Source of the DNA: Nocardia fluminea
GTDB taxonomy: Bacteria; Actinomycetota; Actinomycetes; Mycobacteriales; Mycobacteriaceae
Length of the DNA stretch: 64,000 nt
Assembly (NCBI RefSeq): GCF_002846365.1
Contig: NZ_PJMW01000002.1
Location: 1,488,001 to 1,552,000 of the forward strand
Reading direction: 5' to 3'
Of this stretch, positions 1,717 through 52,301 are shown piece by piece; positions within the stretch are counted from its first letter, which is position 1, and every line of letters starts with the position of its first letter. The notes under the pieces were generated by a model. It did not search any database. It was given only the letters and a program-made list of their open reading frames with translations, and had not been told where the DNA came from. The position numbers were made by a program, and so were the translations under genes.

Positions 1717-1800
1717 GCGGCCGGGTCGCCGGTCAGGCGCCGTTGCGTAGGCGACGAAGGAGCAAGCAACGGTGCCTGACCGGCGGCCCCTCAGGGCCGC
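1717..1800. repeat. Structured intergenic repeat, copy 1
   Basis: This is a long interrupted inverted repeat. Inner arms at 1729-1746 and 1766-1783 pair over 18 bp with one mismatch. Outer arms GCGGCC (1717-1722) and GGCCGC (1795-1800) enclose them with a bulge on one side. Read on the minus strand it contains CGGCCCTGAGG (1799-1789) and, in the loop, CTCCTTCGTCGC (1762-1751). The same two words occur in the same order and nearly the same spacing in the element at 28474-28560. It lies between divergent genes, so it is not a simple terminator. Confidence 0.7.
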
Positions 1801-24706: not shown

Positions 24707-27700
24707 GTGCGACCGGACCGATCTGAACGAGCGTTCACCCGATACCGCCTGATCGCCCTCGTCTGTGGGCTGCTCGGGTTCGTGCTTGCCCTGCTCACAC
24801 CGCTGTTACCGGTGCGCCAGGACCGGGCGAGCCTGGACTGGCCGCAAGCGGGCGCGACCAGCGTCGAGGCACCGCTGGTGTCGTATGTGCCGCAGCGGCT
24901 CGACGCGCAGCTGCCGTGCACGATGCTGAGCGGGCTGCCGGGTCCCGGGGCGGAGAACCCGGCCACGACCACCCTGCTGACGACGATTCCGGTCGCTTCC
25001 GGCAAGGCCGACCGCGGGCTCAGCGTCACCGTCCGCGACGGGGTGCTGGGGGTGCAGGCGCGCGATGTGCCGATGCTGTCGGCGCCGATCGCCGAGATCG
25101 GCGGGTGTGAGCGGATCAGCATCGTCTCGACGATCGAGGCCACGACCGTCGAGTTCGTTGGGGCGACGCGCCAGGACGGGACGCCGTTCCGCAACACCGT
25201 CACCGTGGACAAGCGCCCGCAGATCGTGGGCGTCTACACCGACCTCGACGCGGCCGCCCTCACCGGCGCCCGGCTGCACGCCGATATCGACTCCCGCTTC
25301 ACGTCGACGCCGACGACACTGAAACTGGCGGCGATGATCGGCGCCGGCGTCTTCACCGTGCTCGCGCTGATCGCGCTGCACCTGCTCGACACCGCCGACG
25401 GCCGCCGTGCCCGCCGCTTCCTGCCCCGGCACTGGTGGCGGATCACACCGGCCGACGTGGTGGTGGTCGTGACCTTGCTGGGCTGGCATGTGATCGGCGC
25501 CAACACCTCCGACGACGGCTACATCCTCAATATGGCGCGCGCGTCGGGCCCGTCGGGCTACATGGCGAATTACTACCGCTGGTTCGGCGTGCCGGAAGCG
25601 CCCTTCGGCTGGTCCTACGAACTGCTCGCCTGGATGACGAAGGTCTCCGACGCCAGCCCGTGGATGCGCCTGCCCGCGCTCGCCGCCGGTCTGGTCTGCT
25701 GGGCGGTGATCAGCCGAGAAGTGCTGCCCCGCCTCGGCGCTCGTGTGCGCCGCGACAAGGTGGCGCTGTGGACGGCTGGCCTGGTGTTCCTCGCCTTCTG
25801 GCTCCCCTACGACAACGGTCTCCGCCCCGAACCGCTGATCGCGGCGGGTGCGCTGCTCACCTGGTGCCTCATCGAACGTGCCATCGCCACCGCACGTCTG
25901 CTGCCCGCCGCCTTGGCGATCCTCATCGCCGCGTTCTCGCTGGCGGCGGGACCGACGGGCCTGATCTGCATCGCCGCCCTGATCGCCGGTACCCGGCCGG
26001 TCATGCAGGTCATCATCAAACGCGCGCAGGGCCTGCGCCCGCGCCGGATCGCCGCCGACAGCGCCGATGACCGCTCGCCGGCCGATCCGGCCGATTCGAG
26101 CAGCTCGGTTCGAACGAACAGCTCGTCGAGCCGGCTCTCGGTGGGCGCGAAGATCTTCCGCTACGCGGCACTGCTGGCGCCCGGCGTCGCGGCGGGCACG
26201 CTGGTGCTCATCGTCGTCTTCGCCGACCAGACGCTGGCCACCGTCATGGAGGCCACCCGGGTCCGCACGCTCGTCGGCCCGAACGTCGCCTGGTTCGACG
26301 AACGCACCCGCTGGGACTCGCTGTTCATGCTGTCCCCCGACGGCTCGCTGGCCCGCCGCTTCGGCGTGCTGGTGCTGCTGCTGTGCCTGCTCGTGTGCAT
26401 CCTGCAGGTGCTGCGCAAGGGCCGCATCCCCGGCACCTCACGCGGCCCCTCGGTGCGCATCCTCGGCATCGTCTTCGCCGCGCTGCTGCTGATGATGTGG
26501 ACGCCGACCAAGTGGACCCACCACTTCGGTGTCTACGCGGGCCTGGCGGGTTCGCTGGCGGCGCTGGCCGCGGTCGCCGTGGGTACGAACGGGATCAGAG
26601 CCCCCCGCAATCGCGCGCTGTTCACTGCGGCGGTGTTGTTCCTGCTCGCGATGACCTTCACCGGGTCCAACGGCTGGTGGTACGTCTCCAGCTACGGCGT
26701 GCCGTTCTGGGACAAGGCGCCGATGGTGGCGGGCAAGGGCGTTTCGACGCTGTTCCTGGGCCTCAGCATCCTCGCACTGCTGGTCGCCTTGTATTTCCAT
26801 CTGCGCGACCCGTACCGAACCTCGCGCGACACCGGGCGTTTCGATCGCTTCGCGACCATGCCGCTCACCATCGCGGCGGCGTTGCTCGTGCTGTTCGAGG
26901 TGGCTTCGATGGCCAAGGGCGCCATCACCCAGTACCCCGCCTACTCCATCGCGAAGTCGAATTTCAACGCGCTGCAAGGCGATACGTGTGGTCTGGCCAA
27001 CGATGTGCTGGTGGAATCGAATACGGCCGACTCCCTTCTCACCCCCTACACCGGTGACCCCGCCGACGGTCTGAACGCCGAGTCCACCGGCTTCACCCCG
27101 GACGGGGTGGCCGACGACCTCACCGCCGACGCCGACGAGACCGTGGTCGGCGGCGCCAACTCGGTCGACACCGATTCCGCCAACAAGACCACCAAGACCA
27201 CCGGTGCGGGCACCGGCGGCGGCACCAGCGCAGAACCCGGTATCAACGGCAGCACCGTGGCTCTGCCGTTCGGCCTCGATCCGGCCCGCACCCCGGTCCT
27301 CGGTTCCTTCCAGGACGGCGTGCAGCAGCAGGCGAAGCTGACCTCACAGTGGTATCGCGTGGACCTCGGCGACAGCGTGCGCGACGATCCCGCCTACCAG
27401 GCGCTCGTGGTCACCGCGGCCGGGCGGATCCGCTACGTCGACACCGACGGCGTCGTGCACTACGGGCAGGACCTGCGGCTGGAATACGGCATTCGCGCCG
27501 CCGACGGTTCCGTCGAGGTGACGGGCTCGGTCGCGCCGATGGATATCGGGCCCGCTCCGTCGTGGCGCAACCTGCGCGTACCGATCGACGCGCTGCCAGC
27601 CGGCGTGAACGCGGTGCGCCTGGTCGCCGCCGACAACGACATCACCGGCAAGCAGTGGCTCGCGGTGACGCCGCCACGGTTGCCGAAACTGTCCACCCTC

Positions 27701-28069
27701 GACTCGGTGGTCGGCCGGACCGCTCCGGTGCTGCTCGACTGGCACGTCGGCCTGGCGTTTCCCTGCCAGCGCCCGTTCGAGCACCACGACGGCGTCGCGG
27801 AGGCTCCGCAGTGGCGGATTCTGCCCGACCGGGTCGGTTCGGACGCGTCCAACGCCTGGCAGGACGACATCGGTGGCGGCCCGCTCGGGTGGACAAATCT
27901 GCTCCTGAGGGCCGAGACTGTGCCCACCTATCTCGACCGTGATCTCGGTCGCGACTGGGGCTCGCTGGAGCGGTTCACGCCGTACCAGCCCGCACCGCCC
28001 GCGAAGATCGGGGTGACTGTGGTCGATCAGTCGGGTCGGGCGAAAGAACCGGCAATTCGGGCACAGTAG
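24707..28069 (+). CDS. Emb family arabinofuranosyltransferase (EmbB-like)
   Basis: Emb proteins polymerise arabinan from decaprenyl-phosphoryl-arabinose outside the membrane. This 1120-residue copy has the N-terminal carbohydrate-binding domain (about 40-200), then the GT-C core with the catalytic pair Asp269-Asp270 in NTSDDGYI, about 13 hydrophobic segments to residue 770, and a C-terminal binding domain (about 830-1110). The segment VSDASPWMRLPALAAG recalls EmbB. Met276 (codon 25532-25534) stands seven residues after the first catalytic Asp, like Met306 of M. tuberculosis EmbB. The start is a GTG. Which of EmbA, EmbB or EmbC it replaces needs a tree. Confidence 0.93.
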   Translation: MRPDRSERAFTRYRLIALVCGLLGFVLALLTPLLPVRQDRASLDWPQAGATSVEAPLVSYVPQRLDAQLPCTMLSGLPGPGAENPATTTLLTTIPVASGKADRGLSVTVRDGVLGVQARDVPMLSAPIAEIGGCERISIVSTIEATTVEFVGATRQDGTPFRNTVTVDKRPQIVGVYTDLDAAALTGARLHADIDSRFTSTPTTLKLAAMIGAGVFTVLALIALHLLDTADGRRARRFLPRHWWRITPADVVVVVTLLGWHVIGANTSDDGYILNMARASGPSGYMANYYRWFGVPEAPFGWSYELLAWMTKVSDASPWMRLPALAAGLVCWAVISREVLPRLGARVRRDKVALWTAGLVFLAFWLPYDNGLRPEPLIAAGALLTWCLIERAIATARLLPAALAILIAAFSLAAGPTGLICIAALIAGTRPVMQVIIKRAQGLRPRRIAADSADDRSPADPADSSSSVRTNSSSSRLSVGAKIFRYAALLAPGVAAGTLVLIVVFADQTLATVMEATRVRTLVGPNVAWFDERTRWDSLFMLSPDGSLARRFGVLVLLLCLLVCILQVLRKGRIPGTSRGPSVRILGIVFAALLLMMWTPTKWTHHFGVYAGLAGSLAALAAVAVGTNGIRAPRNRALFTAAVLFLLAMTFTGSNGWWYVSSYGVPFWDKAPMVAGKGVSTLFLGLSILALLVALYFHLRDPYRTSRDTGRFDRFATMPLTIAAALLVLFEVASMAKGAITQYPAYSIAKSNFNALQGDTCGLANDVLVESNTADSLLTPYTGDPADGLNAESTGFTPDGVADDLTADADETVVGGANSVDTDSANKTTKTTGAGTGGGTSAEPGINGSTVALPFGLDPARTPVLGSFQDGVQQQAKLTSQWYRVDLGDSVRDDPAYQALVVTAAGRIRYVDTDGVVHYGQDLRLEYGIRAADGSVEVTGSVAPMDIGPAPSWRNLRVPIDALPAGVNAVRLVAADNDITGKQWLAVTPPRLPKLSTLDSVVGRTAPVLLDWHVGLAFPCQRPFEHHDGVAEAPQWRILPDRVGSDASNAWQDDIGGGPLGWTNLLLRAETVPTYLDRDLGRDWGSLERFTPYQPAPPAKIGVTVVDQSGRAKEPAIRAQ

Positions 28070-28231
28070 GACGGCGTAGAGACTGTGGCAGCGTAAGGGC
28101 AGTGACCGGGCACTTGTCCATGTCGCTCACGAAACCCTCAGTGTCCGTTAGGGTTTCGATTGGATGAAACACCTGTAAATGACAGCGTGAAGGTCCTGTG
28201 CCTGCACGTTTGAGCACGTACCCTGGTGGGT

Positions 28232-28393
28232 ATGACAGGAGCCTTCGATGACATGGATCTGCGAGATCTCGTCGAGTTGCTCAGCAACGACGAGAAGCAA
28301 GAACTACGACCGGCCGTAATGCGGGTACTGGAAAGACTGCCTTCACAAGAGGTATTACGCCGCGACCTGAACCGTCGCATGCTCAACGTCTGA
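28232..28393 (+). CDS. Small acidic/basic helical protein, 53 aa
   Basis: This short frame has an ATG at 28232 preceded by GGTGGG and a stop at 28393, and is followed at once by a strong terminator. The product is charged and helical (MDLRDLVELLSNDEK in the first half, SQEVLRRDLNRRML in the second), with no cysteine, signal or membrane segment. Its codon choice includes CTA, TTA and GTA, unlike the GC-rich genes around it. I know no function. The separate terminator suggests it is an independent transcription unit between the two convergent emb genes. Confidence 0.55.
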   Translation: MTGAFDDMDLRDLVELLSNDEKQELRPAVMRVLERLPSQEVLRRDLNRRMLNV

Positions 28394-28416
28394 CTCCTGT
28401 CCCCCATCCAACCGAA

Positions 28417-28449
28417 AAGGCGCGGACCACATCATGTGATCCGCGCCTT
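28417..28449. terminator. Rho-independent terminator
   Basis: A 15-bp stem (28417-28431 with 28435-28449) has a 3-nt loop. AAAA precedes and TTATTCTT follows, so it can act in both directions, ending the 53-codon gene on one side and the second emb gene on the other. Confidence 0.85.
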
Positions 28450-28473
28450 ATTCTTGGCGGCTGGCGCCGCGAA

Positions 28474-28560
28474 TTCTCGGCCCTGAGGCCTCGATCTTCC
28501 CTCCCTGCGGGTACTCCTTCGTCGCACCCTTCGGTCAGTCCAGATCGAGGCGGCCGAGAA
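28474..28560. repeat. Structured intergenic repeat, copy 2
   Basis: The left arm 28474-28497 (TTCTCGGCC, a CTGAG bulge, then GCCTCGATCT) pairs with the right arm 28542-28560 over 19 bp, perfect except for the bulge. The loop holds CTCCTTCGTCGC at 28514-28525. CGGCCCTGAGG lies at 28478-28488. Both words, and the distance between them (36 bp here, 37 in the other copy), are shared with the element at 1717-1800, while the arm sequences differ but still pair. Confidence 0.75.
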
Positions 28561-28577
28561 CTACACGACTTCCGGTG

Positions 28578-31500
28578 TTAGAACACCCGGAGCGGTCCCG
28601 GGCTCCACATGCCGTTTCGTGACGCGGTGCCGGTCGCGAGCTGGGCCGGGGTGGCTTGCGCGTACTGGTCGTAGCGTTCCAGCGAGCCCCAGTCGCGGGC
28701 CCAGTCGTCCTTCAGGTAGGTCGGGATGGTGACCCGGGCCGCCAGCATCTGCGACATGCCGAGCGGACCACCGAACTCCTGCGCCTGCCAGGTATCGGTC
28801 GAGGAGATCGCCAGCGGGCGGTCCGGCAGGATCCGGTAGTTCGGCACCTCGGCCACGCCGTTCTTGTGCGCGAACGGGCGCTGGCAGGGGAACTGCAGGC
28901 CGACGGCCCAGTCCAGCAGGACCGGCTGGTCCCGGCCGATGAAGGTGTCGAGGGTCTGCAGCTCGGGCACCCGCGGCGGGGTGAACGCCAGCCACTGATC
29001 GCCGATCAGGATCGGGTCGTTCACCACCACGCGCACCGCGTTCACCTCGGCCGGGAGGTCGGCCAGCGGCACGCGCAGGTTGCGCCACGACGGGGCGGGG
29101 CCGATATCGCGCGGCTGGTAGGCGCCGAGCGTGGTGACGCTGCCGTCGGGGTTGCGGGTGCCGTATTCGACGAACAGCGCCTGGCCGTACTTGTCGGAGC
29201 CGGAGTCGTCCTTGGAGGCGATGCGACCGGCGGCGCTGATGACCACCAGCGGCGAGTCGTCCGAGCGGGCGGGCAGCCCGTACCAGGCCGACTCCAGGTG
29301 GGCGGGCTGCTGCATGCCCTCCTGGTAGGAGCCGAGAATCGGGGTCTGCGCGGGATCGAGACCGAAGGGCAGCGCCACCGTGGACCCGTTGACGCCGAGT
29401 GCGCCCTCACCGCCGCCGGTGCCCGCGCTCTCGCCTTCGGCGAAGGCCGCGCCGACCGACTGGTTGCTGGTGTTGCCGGTGCCCGGCTTCACCTCGACCG
29501 CGTCGGCCGAGAGGTCACCCGGCACGCCGTTGGGCGTGAAGCCGACCGAACCGGTACCCGCCAGCGGGTCGTCCGGGTTGGTGAACGGGCGCGCCGGGTC
29601 GACGATGGGGTCGAGCCTGCCGCCGTTCGGGTCGGGTTCGACCAGCACGTCGTTGGCCAGGCCACACGAGTTGTTGCTCAGCGCGTCGACGTTGGAGCGG
29701 CCGAGCGAGTAGCCGGGATACTGCTGTGTCGCGCCCTTGACCAGCGAGAGCACTTCGAACAGCACCATCAGACCGACCACGATAGTCAGCGGGATGGCGG
29801 CGAACTTGCGAATTCTGTTGCCGCGCTTGGTCTTCGCGGACGGCACCGGCTTCACATAGTCTTCGCGCAGCGCATACCAGCCGACCAGGGCCAGTGCCAC
29901 GCCGAACAGGATGAGCATCACCGTGTTCGAGTGGACGCCGCGCAGCGAGATGGTCTTGTCGAACCACGGCACGCCGTAGCTGGACACGTACCAGTAGCCG
30001 TTGATGCCGGAGAACGACAGCGCCAGCACGAACAGCAAGCCGGCCAGGAAGATCGCCCGGTTCTTGCGTGAGCGCAGCGCGCTCTGCGACACCGCCACCG
30101 CCGTCACCGCCGCGAGCCCACCCGCGATGCCCGCGTAGGCGCCGAAGTGGTGGGTCCACTTGGTGGGGTTGAACATCATGAAGAAGATCGTGCCGAAGAC
30201 GATCCCCATCAGCCGCCAGGTCGGACCCGACGCGATCCCCGGCACCTGACGGCGGCGCAGCAGCACCAGCAGCGTCGTGAACAGGCACAGCAGCATCACC
30301 AGGAAGGCGAAACGGCGGGCCAGCGAGCCGTCGACGGTCTCGACGAACATGTAGTAGTAGCGCAGGTAGTCCTCGTACCAGGCCAGGTTCGGGCCGGTGG
30401 CCTGCCGGACCCGGTTGGCTTCCTGGATGCCGGCGAAGGTCTGGTCGCCGTAGACCACCGTGAGCACGAGCACGCCGGCCGAGGCGATCGGAGCCAGCAG
30501 CGGGAGCGTGCCGAATTGACGATGACGGCGCACGATGATCCGCACCAGCGGCCGGATACCGGCCAGCAGCGCGGCCACACACATCAGGCCGGTCGGCGCC
30601 GCGGCGAGGGTGAACGCCGCGATCAGCACCGCGATCCCCGCGGGCAGCAGACGGCCGGTGGCGATGGCGCGTTCGATGGAAACCCAGGTGAGCAGGGCGC
30701 CGAGGGCGACGATGGGCTCCGAGCGCAGGCCGTTGTCGAACGGCAGCCAGAACGCCAGGAACACCAGTCCGCCGGTCCACAGCGCGACCTGCGAGCGCTT
30801 CACGGCATTGCCGAGGCGCGGCACCACCTCGCGGCTGATCACCATCCAGCACAGAATCGCGCAGATCAGAGCGGGGACGCGCACCCACGGGCTGGCCGTG
30901 GAGATCTCCGCGAACACCTGGATGACGTAGTAGTACCAGCCGAACGGGGCCTCGGGCACGCCATACCAGCGGAAGTAGTTGGCCGTATAGCCCGCGTCGG
31001 GGGCTACGCGCACCATCGACAGGATGTAGCCGTCGTCGGAGGTGTTGGCGCCGACGAAATGCCAGACCAGCAGCGTGCCGATGACAGCGCCGTCAGCCCA
31101 CGTGGGCTTCAGCCAGTTACGCGGCAGGAACCGGCGGTGCCCGCGCCCGTCACTACCGTCGAGGCGGCCCAGCGCGGCGAGCGCCAGCAAGGTGCACAGC
31201 ACGGCCGCGATGATCGCGACCAGCTTGATCAGCGACGGGCTCGACGAGAAGCGGGTGTCGATCGTCGAGGTCAGCGAAAGGCCCGGCGGCACCTCTCCCT
31301 TCAGATCGGTGAACACGCCCACGATCTGCGGCCGCAGGTCACCGGCGAGCTGGCCCTGCACGGGCACCTGCACGGTCTCCACCGCGCCCGGCTGACCGGC
31401 GATCGGCCGCTCGACCTGCTTGGTCAGCCCCACGAACTCCGCCGACGTGCGGTCCTGATCGGACTTGATCAGGATCGCCGAGCATCCGTCCATCGCCGAC

Positions 31501-31910
31501 CGGTCCGCCGAGGCGACCACCGCGTTGCGATCCACCACGTCGACCGCGGTATCGGAGACGCGCACGAACAGCGCCTCCAGGGCCGCGCGATCGCCCTGCG
31601 GTGGCGCGGTCGCCAGCAGCATCCCGCCCTGCTCGGGCAGCGTCGACACCGCGCTACACGGAATCGACACGTTCAGATCGATCGGCACCTGCGACATCAG
31701 CGGCGCCTGCACGTTTCCGAGCGAGCCGTTCTGTGGCCAGTTCAGCTGCGCGGTCGTCTGGGTGACCGGCAGGAACGGCGTGGCCACCGCGAACAGGGCA
31801 CCGAGAATCCCGGCGACCATCGCGATCCATCGCGCGGTCCGGAAGTCCTTCGCGGTGGCCACCGGTTCGGCAGGCGGCTTGGAGAGAACAGCTGTTGCGG
31901 CGTCTGGCAC
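28578..31910 (-). CDS. Emb family arabinofuranosyltransferase, second copy
   Basis: This is a second complete Emb protein of about 1110 residues, facing the first. It keeps the N-terminal binding domain, the catalytic Asp pair in NTSDDGYI (292-293 from the chosen start), Met299 at the ethambutol-linked position, multiple membrane helices, a Gly-rich linker and the C-terminal carbohydrate-binding domain. The segment ISTASPWVRVPALICA separates it from the first copy and looks more like EmbA/EmbC. I start at the GTG at 31910, where homology to the family begins; an ATG at 32030 is in frame. Two copies, not three, imply a different division of labour from M. tuberculosis. Confidence 0.92.
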   Translation of the reverse strand: MPDAATAVLSKPPAEPVATAKDFRTARWIAMVAGILGALFAVATPFLPVTQTTAQLNWPQNGSLGNVQAPLMSQVPIDLNVSIPCSAVSTLPEQGGMLLATAPPQGDRAALEALFVRVSDTAVDVVDRNAVVASADRSAMDGCSAILIKSDQDRTSAEFVGLTKQVERPIAGQPGAVETVQVPVQGQLAGDLRPQIVGVFTDLKGEVPPGLSLTSTIDTRFSSSPSLIKLVAIIAAVLCTLLALAALGRLDGSDGRGHRRFLPRNWLKPTWADGAVIGTLLVWHFVGANTSDDGYILSMVRVAPDAGYTANYFRWYGVPEAPFGWYYYVIQVFAEISTASPWVRVPALICAILCWMVISREVVPRLGNAVKRSQVALWTGGLVFLAFWLPFDNGLRSEPIVALGALLTWVSIERAIATGRLLPAGIAVLIAAFTLAAAPTGLMCVAALLAGIRPLVRIIVRRHRQFGTLPLLAPIASAGVLVLTVVYGDQTFAGIQEANRVRQATGPNLAWYEDYLRYYYMFVETVDGSLARRFAFLVMLLCLFTTLLVLLRRRQVPGIASGPTWRLMGIVFGTIFFMMFNPTKWTHHFGAYAGIAGGLAAVTAVAVSQSALRSRKNRAIFLAGLLFVLALSFSGINGYWYVSSYGVPWFDKTISLRGVHSNTVMLILFGVALALVGWYALREDYVKPVPSAKTKRGNRIRKFAAIPLTIVVGLMVLFEVLSLVKGATQQYPGYSLGRSNVDALSNNSCGLANDVLVEPDPNGGRLDPIVDPARPFTNPDDPLAGTGSVGFTPNGVPGDLSADAVEVKPGTGNTSNQSVGAAFAEGESAGTGGGEGALGVNGSTVALPFGLDPAQTPILGSYQEGMQQPAHLESAWYGLPARSDDSPLVVISAAGRIASKDDSGSDKYGQALFVEYGTRNPDGSVTTLGAYQPRDIGPAPSWRNLRVPLADLPAEVNAVRVVVNDPILIGDQWLAFTPPRVPELQTLDTFIGRDQPVLLDWAVGLQFPCQRPFAHKNGVAEVPNYRILPDRPLAISSTDTWQAQEFGGPLGMSQMLAARVTIPTYLKDDWARDWGSLERYDQYAQATPAQLATGTASRNGMWSPGPLRVF

Positions 31911-32330
31911 GGTTCGACATCGTATCTGTCCGGCCCTGGTTGTGAGTCGTCGCTCGCCTCGGGGTCTGGAGTCAGGCCATCTTGACGGCGAGCGAACAGG
32001 CAGGGCCGTACCTACCTGTTGTCGCGTCATACTGAACGGCTATCAGTCCGCACATGGCGCCGACACTCACCGCATCCGAGATCAACGCAGGAGTTTTTCG
32101 AGGATAGCAGTATGCAAAATACATATCGGCAGAAAGTGCGGCAATAACCTCGGACGGCCCCGCGGGTCGGCATTTTATGAGCGAGACCGTCGGCCGGGTC
32201 GATAATCGCTGAAGTCCCGCGCGGATTACATGGGACCGAACGATCCACATACAACGATCAATTGCGCTCGTATTCTTAAATGCGACAGCTTCACTTCGAA
32301 TGTCTGTCAGTTCCACCCTAGGAGAACGCA
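31911..32330. other. Divergent intergenic region, no gene seen
   Basis: Between the second emb gene and the next secreted protein lie about 420 bp with a noticeably lower GC content between 32030 and 32330. Short open frames here lack ribosome sites and family resemblance. It should hold both divergent promoters. No strong palindrome was found. Confidence 0.4.
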
Positions 32331-52053: not shown

Positions 52054-52301
52054 TCGACTAGACCTTTCTCGCAGACCGAACGCGCAAATCCCGAGCTACG
52101 CAGTCGGATCCCTCATCGGACGCCGAGAGAAACCAATCCAGGGCAAAACGGACGATTCAACCTCGACGCATGCTCACTGTGTATAAATCGGTGACGAATG
52201 GTCTACATGTTGCTGGAAAGTGACCCGGAGCACAACTCCCGGTGATCTGTCGCACATGATTCGTCACCGCCTGGGGCTCGGATCGTGACGAAAACGAAGA
52301 A

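Follow-up and report, generated by a model that had tools for sequence, protein, structure and literature searches.

The two structured features that we followed up in the window, i.e., in the whole 64,000-nucleotide (64-kb) stretch of Nocardia fluminea DNA analyzed here, are copies of one non-coding repeat family of about 100–170 bp. Covariance models, matches in many Nocardia genomes, and counts of stem pairs strongly support a structured, dispersed family with covarying stems, as had been proposed from the DNA letters. We consider it fairly probable (roughly 0.68) that the family is a new, Nocardia-restricted, non-autonomous interspersed repeat, which would act as a folded single strand and would be copied or moved by a factor acting in trans; both the role of folding and the mover are what we infer from the comparisons below.

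Two Window Copies and the Architecture of Types I and II

The sequence-only reading had pointed to two words shared by the features. CTCCTTCGTCGC is found at 28514–28525 (+) and 1751–1762 (−), and CGGCCCTGAGG at 28478–28488 (+) and 1789–1799 (−). The sharing was confirmed: within the 64 kb of the window, each word is present a single time per element and absent elsewhere, and the start-to-start spacing is 36 and 37 nt in the two elements, as had been read. Copy 1 is oriented along the minus strand and belongs to type I, and copy 2 belongs to type II (Table 1). Further parts of the earlier description were recovered as well: a long hairpin surrounds each copy, with five unpaired nucleotides (CTGAG) in the 5′ arm; the arm sequences differ between the copies, with pairing kept within each; and divergent genes flank copy 1, convergent genes copy 2. 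The bulge had been called conserved, which holds for its position; its sequence varies in the alignments, where CTGAG is one of several variants. Copy 2 is flanked by two large convergent arabinosyltransferase genes of the EmbC C-terminal domain family (24707–32030), between which a 55-codon reading frame (28226–28393) is also located. Directly 5′ of copy 2, a terminator-like hairpin followed by TTATT was seen by eye (28417–28452).

Table 1. Coordinates of the repeat copies and their parts within the window.
Feature	Position	Strand	Basis
Copy 1 (type I), left end, ACAGGATTATCG (family consensus near CTGTGTTTTTG)	1823–1834	−	coordinates; consensus
Copy 1, hairpin P1, 6-bp stem, TGGC loop	1807–1822	−	fold
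Copy 1, main hairpin P2	1713–1804	−	fold; family covariation
Copy 1, P2 lower arms	1795–1804 and 1713–1722	−	fold
Copy 1, P2 bulge	1790–1794	−	fold
Copy 1, P2 upper arms	1766–1789 and 1723–1746	−	fold
Copy 1, conserved apical word CTCCTTCGTCGC (opposite strand GCGACGAAGGAG)	1751–1762	−	genome word count
Copy 1, third hairpin P3, type I only	1696–1712	−	alignment
Copy 1, conserved type I right tail (CCGCTCCTCGGGGTCGCGGGTGCGGGG...)	1664–1695	−	alignment; unit end from tandem copies in another genome
Copy 2 (type II), hairpin P1, TGGC loop	28456–28470	+	fold, alignment
Copy 2, main hairpin P2, with upper stem and large conserved core	28474–28560	+	fold
Copy 2, P2 lower arms	28474–28482 and 28552–28560	+	fold
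Copy 2, P2 bulge	about 28483–28487	+	fold
Copy 2, conserved type II core TTCCCTCCCTGCGGGTA-CTCCTTCGTCGC-ACCCTTCGGTCAGTCCA	28497–28542	+	conserved columns
Empty counterpart of a type II copy in Nocardia caishijiensis (L150), none in window	about 52280–52299		ortholog comparison

Common to both types are a left end with a consensus near CTGTGTTTTTG (in the orientation of the sequence-only reading), a small hairpin P1 with a TGGC loop and a covarying stem, and a long hairpin P2, which comprises a lower stem, an asymmetric bulge of about 5–6 nt, and an upper stem. The tips differ. In type I, the lower stem measures 10 bp, the upper arms of copy 1 span 24 nt, P2 has about 33 pairs, and the tip reads TTGCTCCTTCGTCGCCTACG in most copies; P3 and a conserved tail are found in this type in addition. 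In type II, the upper stem is shorter and a large core is conserved (TCTTCCCTCCCT..CGGGYACTCCTTCGTCGCACCCT...TCAGTCCAGA), and its relatives in other Nocardia share the outer core and have other tips. The extent of the type I unit is revealed by genome G054, where five same-direction copy pairs lie 167–171 bp apart: it spans GTTTGTTGG-P1 through a tail that ends near GGGATGTGCGGGG. In every tandem pair, the second copy is decayed. These dimers (L312–L316) are similar at the five loci, and their second copies are similarly decayed, as if the dimer had been copied whole. In genome G130, near-identical type I copies (L266–L272, L322, and L323) lie within larger repeated units with shared flanks on both sides. 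The left end often contains or abuts the stop codon of the upstream gene (e.g., GCTG-TGA-CATTG), and insertion may reset the stop codons of upstream genes.

Copy Number in the N. fluminea Genome

CTCCTTCGTCGC occurs 54 times in the 8.06-Mb genome, compared to one occurrence of a reversed-word control. The lack of a third copy had been set beforehand as a refuting outcome, and this genome-wide count does not bear it out. Two covariance models, R1 for type I and R2 for type II, yielded 55 and 27 match rows at a cut-off of E ≤ 0.001, with 22 of the 55 being opposite-strand echoes of hairpins already counted. Merged by place, both models together mark 59 places, a few weak ones of which are known from the models alone. 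Of the 54 words, 49 fall within these places: the 29 strongest R1 places contribute 23 and the R2 places 26. Because of this concentration and the contrast to the reversed word, the recurrence of the loop word is beyond chance. The five words outside comprise one type I copy split by an insertion sequence (IS), one fragment (L017), and three others. Among the first 30 copies viewed, 16 were type I, 13 were type II, and one was the fragment L017.

P1, sought in this genome only and only in its GAGCGC/GCGCGC form, was found at 21 sites. Two of them lie outside the model-marked places, one in a type I copy that is interrupted by an IS3-like element and the other in a truncated copy, and orphan P1 sites as traces of an autonomous parent were set aside on this basis. 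No cognate transposase was observed to be flanked by any of the 21 sites, the one gene-bearing case being the IS3-like insertion. This 1349-bp element (L334:1567–2915; contig C2, about 2867.7–2869.1 kb) lies inside the tip of the type I copy, encodes HTH_Tnp_1 and rve frames, and shows inverted ends (TGAACCGCCCCGGG) and a 3-bp direct repeat (GCT).

Distribution across Genomes

R1 matched 90 of 118 Nocardia genomes, N. fluminea included, some of them with one weak match; as at most 31 candidates were scored per genome, copy numbers from this search are lower bounds. In a 200-genome sample of the order, two genomes were matched, both among its three Nocardia, and none of the 197 genomes outside the genus (18 candidates scored per genome, strict filters). 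R2 matched 8 of 40 relatives, all of them Nocardia and again including N. fluminea, and a generic type II pattern was present in 4 of 10 Nocardia versus 0 of 338 others. An exact scan of named genomes for the type II core returned at least 120 stretches; all 80 matches listed stem from Nocardia, namely from N. salmonicida, N. ignorata, N. caishijiensis, N. rosealba, N. coubleae, N. alba, Nocardia sp. AG03, and a MAG. As far as the samples searched show, the family is apparently restricted to this genus.

Carriage by plasmids or phages was considered and dropped. The type I query gave one weak plasmid match, on a 2.66-Mb Nocardia farcinica replicon, and no match in phages; the type II query gave none in the plasmid collection, and the exact cores of both types gave none in viral contigs. 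Copies are unevenly placed along some chromosomes: in genome G089, 43 of 46 type II-like copies lie at 1.07–4.13 Mb of the 8.35-Mb chromosome and none at 4.13–7.83 Mb, and the listed type I copies of G054 likewise avoid 2.2–4.8 Mb.

Covariation of the Arms and the Probable Folding Strand

Covariation was assessed in a type I alignment of 53 matches (E ≤ 1e-14; 50 distinct rows) from 51 chosen loci, which comprise the stronger type I copies of N. fluminea (without weaker ones, e.g., L057, L058, and L060) and copies from other Nocardia. In the 50 distinct rows, 98.1% of 2043 stem cells are paired, and both partners have changed in 29 of 41 pairs. These figures are raised by the choice of strong matches and by the fit to the model, and related rows do not count as independent events. 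None of 500 shuffles reached the pairing value or the value for two-sided changes, and pairing fell to 32–40% when the partner was slid by 1 to 3 columns. In these type I rows, 197 cells are changed on both sides, six one-sided cells keep a standard pair, and 38 cells are unpaired, some of these being one-sided changes; G-T cells make up 10 of 2166 (53 rows). Thus, the two arms mostly change jointly, and G-U steps are few. L090 and L160, with flanks 98.4% identical, differ by three stem pairs changed on both sides. Few G-U pairs suit the upkeep of a palindrome at the DNA level at least as well as at the RNA level, and a folded RNA would be possible.

Regarding the strand that would fold, GCGACGAAGGAG can be read as GC-GA-C(GAA)G-GA-GC, with tandem G·A pairs and a GAA triloop, both of which are stable motifs. 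RNA energies prefer the GCGA strand for all 43 type I copies and for 133 of the 134 copies of type II, compared to 16 of 43 and 72 of 134 for flank controls, and DNA energies do so for 43 of 43 and 128 of 134 copies, respectively. Stem mismatches, counted on the strand of the sequence-only reading, comprise 17 G·T versus 34 A·C distinct contexts (p = 0.024; not significant for type II alone), and 8 versus 11 on a second alignment (not significant); this mismatch evidence for strand polarity is weak. The strand that matters is probably the GCGACGAAGGAG strand.

Orthologous Sites, Neighbors, and Orientation

Comparison of orthologous sites bears on mobility. In 8 of 17 pairs displayed, which were chosen from a longer candidate list, the element was read as missing in the relative (L202/L105, L238/L145, L150/window, L185/L200, L142/L121, L068/L184, L063/L118, and L131/L183); the remaining nine were filled in both, contained remnants, or were ambiguous. 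Two further absences were found (L084/L121 and L070/L205). The junctions viewed show no clean target-site duplication, the flanks of the compared pairs being only about 83–98% identical (about 97.7% in the nearest pair), and absence in a relative could partly reflect deletion. Two loci differ by in-place inversion (L071 vs. L141; L072 vs. L110 and L136). Other arms at the same site were found in the L079 group and in L116 vs. L094, as well as, judged on short flanks only, in L312 vs. L321 and L238. Kept in place are 26 groups with 90 same-orientation pairs across species, a number to which one pair from the same locus contributes, as do some pairs whose flanks are 100% identical and which resemble one genome represented twice. 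In L064/L157, the flanks are 88.0% and the element 97.0% identical, with 19 of 19 pairs unchanged, and some copies look as if they were under constraint.

The neighborhood of the copies is diverse. From 111 flanking proteins called, eight were left out, and the remaining 103 hit 152 Pfam families with at most two proteins per family; a cis-linked gene partner was discarded, as no family recurs in more than two of the 103. Two of the 103 contain an integrase core domain, which leaves some room for an association with a transposase. Because sites are empty in relatives, inversions occur in place, arms are swapped, and neighbors are unrelated, the copies look mobile, as judged from species comparisons. 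Because many copies are conserved in place, present-day movement, if any, would be slow.

For orientation, dnaA (1.697 Mb of contig C2) was used as a proxy for the origin, since GC skew, sampled in 20 stretches of 15 kb, did not locate the origin owing to noise. Among the stronger type I copies on C2 (25 in all), orientation is 10 plus/0 minus to the right of dnaA and 4 plus/11 minus to the left (p = 0.0005, post hoc). With three weak copies added, the counts are 10/1 and 4/13 (p = 0.0013). Type II orientation showed no association with the side of dnaA (4/9 and 5/7, p = 0.69). The same trend was weakly present in G054 (24 copies, p = 0.08), where the origin was assumed at the contig start and tandem pairs were merged. 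IS200/IS605 elements insert through single-stranded DNA at forks, and the type I polarity would fit insertion of this kind.

Proposed Mechanism and Alternative Explanations

We propose that a single strand would fold into P1 and a long, bulged P2 whose tip is conserved, with P3 added in type I. A trans-acting factor would recognize the folded strand by reading the P2 tip together with P1 and the left end, and the element would be copied or moved between genes. The arms would mainly need complementarity, with their sequence being free. Complementarity would be upheld by a concerted process, either conversion between copies or arm-templated copying, and also by selection against unpaired arms. 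Conversion between copies would lead to arm swaps and, through inverted arms, to in-place inversion, and one arm templating the other would make both arms change together. No mobilizing enzyme was identified by the RAYT profile search, among the flanking-protein families, or at the P1 sites. A specific route, which we regard as improbable, would be multiplication via folded single-stranded DNA with one P2 arm templating the other (hairpin-primed copying). It would jointly explain why the tip is conserved, why the arms vary but remain complementary, why G-U intermediates are few, how entire arms are exchanged at fixed sites, how copies are inverted in place, and why type I orientation is linked to the replichore; against it stand the six one-sided paired and 38 unpaired cells, which make intermediates few but not missing.

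Some of these observations could also be read in terms of RNA. The family might be a cis-acting RNA on the GCGACGAAGGAG strand of mRNAs, which controls stability, termination, or translation and whose dispersal is secondary. Such a role would agree with the better fold of the GCGA strand and with complete retention of stem pairs in some copies despite flank divergence, e.g., in L064/L157. It would also agree with type II copies between co-directional genes, where the mRNA carries the GCGA strand in 14 versus 4 cases in N. fluminea and in 37 versus 26 in other genomes, where 110 copies were classified with orthologs kept in. We nevertheless consider it unlikely, as every gene arrangement is occupied, including divergent and convergent ones, neighboring genes have no family in common, G-U pairs are rare, and inversions in place occurred between species. 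Gene arrangement also led us to reject transcription terminators amplified by chance: copies also sit between divergent genes, so simple termination is insufficient, as had been argued from the two window copies. The hairpins are strong and intergenic, and many left ends abut a stop codon, but a T-run after P2 is not conserved. Termination does not require a conserved tip sequence, and we rate chance-amplified terminators as very improbable.

Among mobile palindromes, the earlier comparison to REP- or MITE-like families holds as an analogy only, given that the genome contains no RAYT, the left end no conserved GTAG/CGTC tag, and the element no conserved terminal inverted repeats. Derivation as a MITE from a DNA transposon with terminal inverted repeats would agree with a small, non-coding, palindromic, and intergenic element that is missing at some orthologous sites. 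However, the pattern is reversed, with a conserved center, variable arms, and no conserved terminal inverted repeats, target-site duplication is not evident in the pairs viewed, and no parent element was found at the 21 P1 sites sought in one form of P1 in N. fluminea, which makes this origin quite improbable. REP sequences moved by a RAYT, i.e., a Y1 tyrosine transposase, are the explanation to which we give the least credence. They are likewise high-copy intergenic palindromes, and one copy carries an IS3-like element in its tip, but the left-end consensus lacks a conserved GTAG or CGTC tag and the size is 100–170 bp instead of 20–40 bp. Moreover, the RAYT-type transposase that the sequence-only reading had suggested looking for was not found: the profile Y1_Tnp (PF01797) has no match in the N. 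fluminea genome, which refutes a RAYT encoded there as the mover. Any match was present in 4 of 24 genomes searched, three of these four being Nocardia, and 20 of the 24 genomes and 12 of 15 Nocardia had none.

Comparison to Known Repeat Families

REPs of the GTAG super-family, which are associated with RAYTs, are described as high-copy intergenic palindromes of 20–40 bp with compensatory stem changes and dimers in PMC2817692 and PMC3733652. The Nocardia repeat resembles REP/BIME sequences in its dispersed intergenic palindromes, compensatory stems, IS insertion into a palindrome, and occurrence of dimers. In contrast to GTAG REPs, it has no RAYT in its own genome and no conserved GTAG, measures 100–170 bp with two or three hairpins, contains a conserved tip, and is restricted to Nocardia in the samples searched. 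The end tag was judged from the left-end consensus, with the right end viewed in alignments only; GGTAGTCCC is present about 30 nt further upstream in several type I copies of N. fluminea, neither beside the hairpin nor conserved in the family. The IS3-like element in a type I tip parallels IS1397, for which insertion into E. coli REPs is reported in PMC1525189. CGTC REPs are characterized in PMC3733652 by an unpaired terminal CGTC, a stem of 8–9 bp, and a loop of 4–5 nt; five phyla are named for them there, Actinobacteria not among these, and no dedicated transposase is known for them. They share with the Nocardia repeat a palindromic, dispersed nature and the lack of a known dedicated transposase, whereas the Nocardia repeat has CGTC inside the hairpin tip and, in type I, about 33 pairs in P2 compared to 8–9. 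Untagged REP-like families without a conserved terminal motif, e.g., in M. tuberculosis and D. radiodurans, are mentioned in PMC3733652; as palindromes without a terminal motif they resemble the Nocardia repeat, a likeness drawn from that mention alone. Bacterial MITEs are small, non-coding, and seemingly non-autonomous according to the review PMC10969869. All three attributes apply to the Nocardia repeat, whose termini, unlike those of MITEs, are not conserved inverted repeats, whose center is conserved, and for which no target-site duplication was seen in the pairs viewed and no parent at the P1 sites.

At the gathering score, Rfam gave no match in the window. In a relaxed search, copy 2 had no match, and copy 1 had eight (seven microRNA models and one sRNA model; best E 0.00013), each of which scored well under the gathering threshold. 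BOX, ERIC, and RUP are modular, structured, small intergenic repeats of other hosts, and the Nocardia repeat is like them in being modular, structured, and small, by general description and not by sequence or architecture. No published description or name of the Nocardia family was found in the literature searched (open-licence PubMed Central).

Implications

Small palindromic repeats are common in bacteria, and several families are without a known mover. Most of the Nocardia searched carry the present family, with up to dozens of copies per genome and several subfamilies. Its presence and absence between related species, together with the lack of a RAYT in N. fluminea, make the question of what moves or copies orphan palindromes testable. 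Hairpin-primed copying, if true, would point to a class of mobile elements driven by a host or other enzyme instead of a RAYT or a terminal-repeat transposase. That the two arms mostly change in concert is a curious evolutionary mode in its own right. The elements add to the intergenic DNA of Nocardia genomes a component for which we encountered no description, and which may serve as a typing marker.
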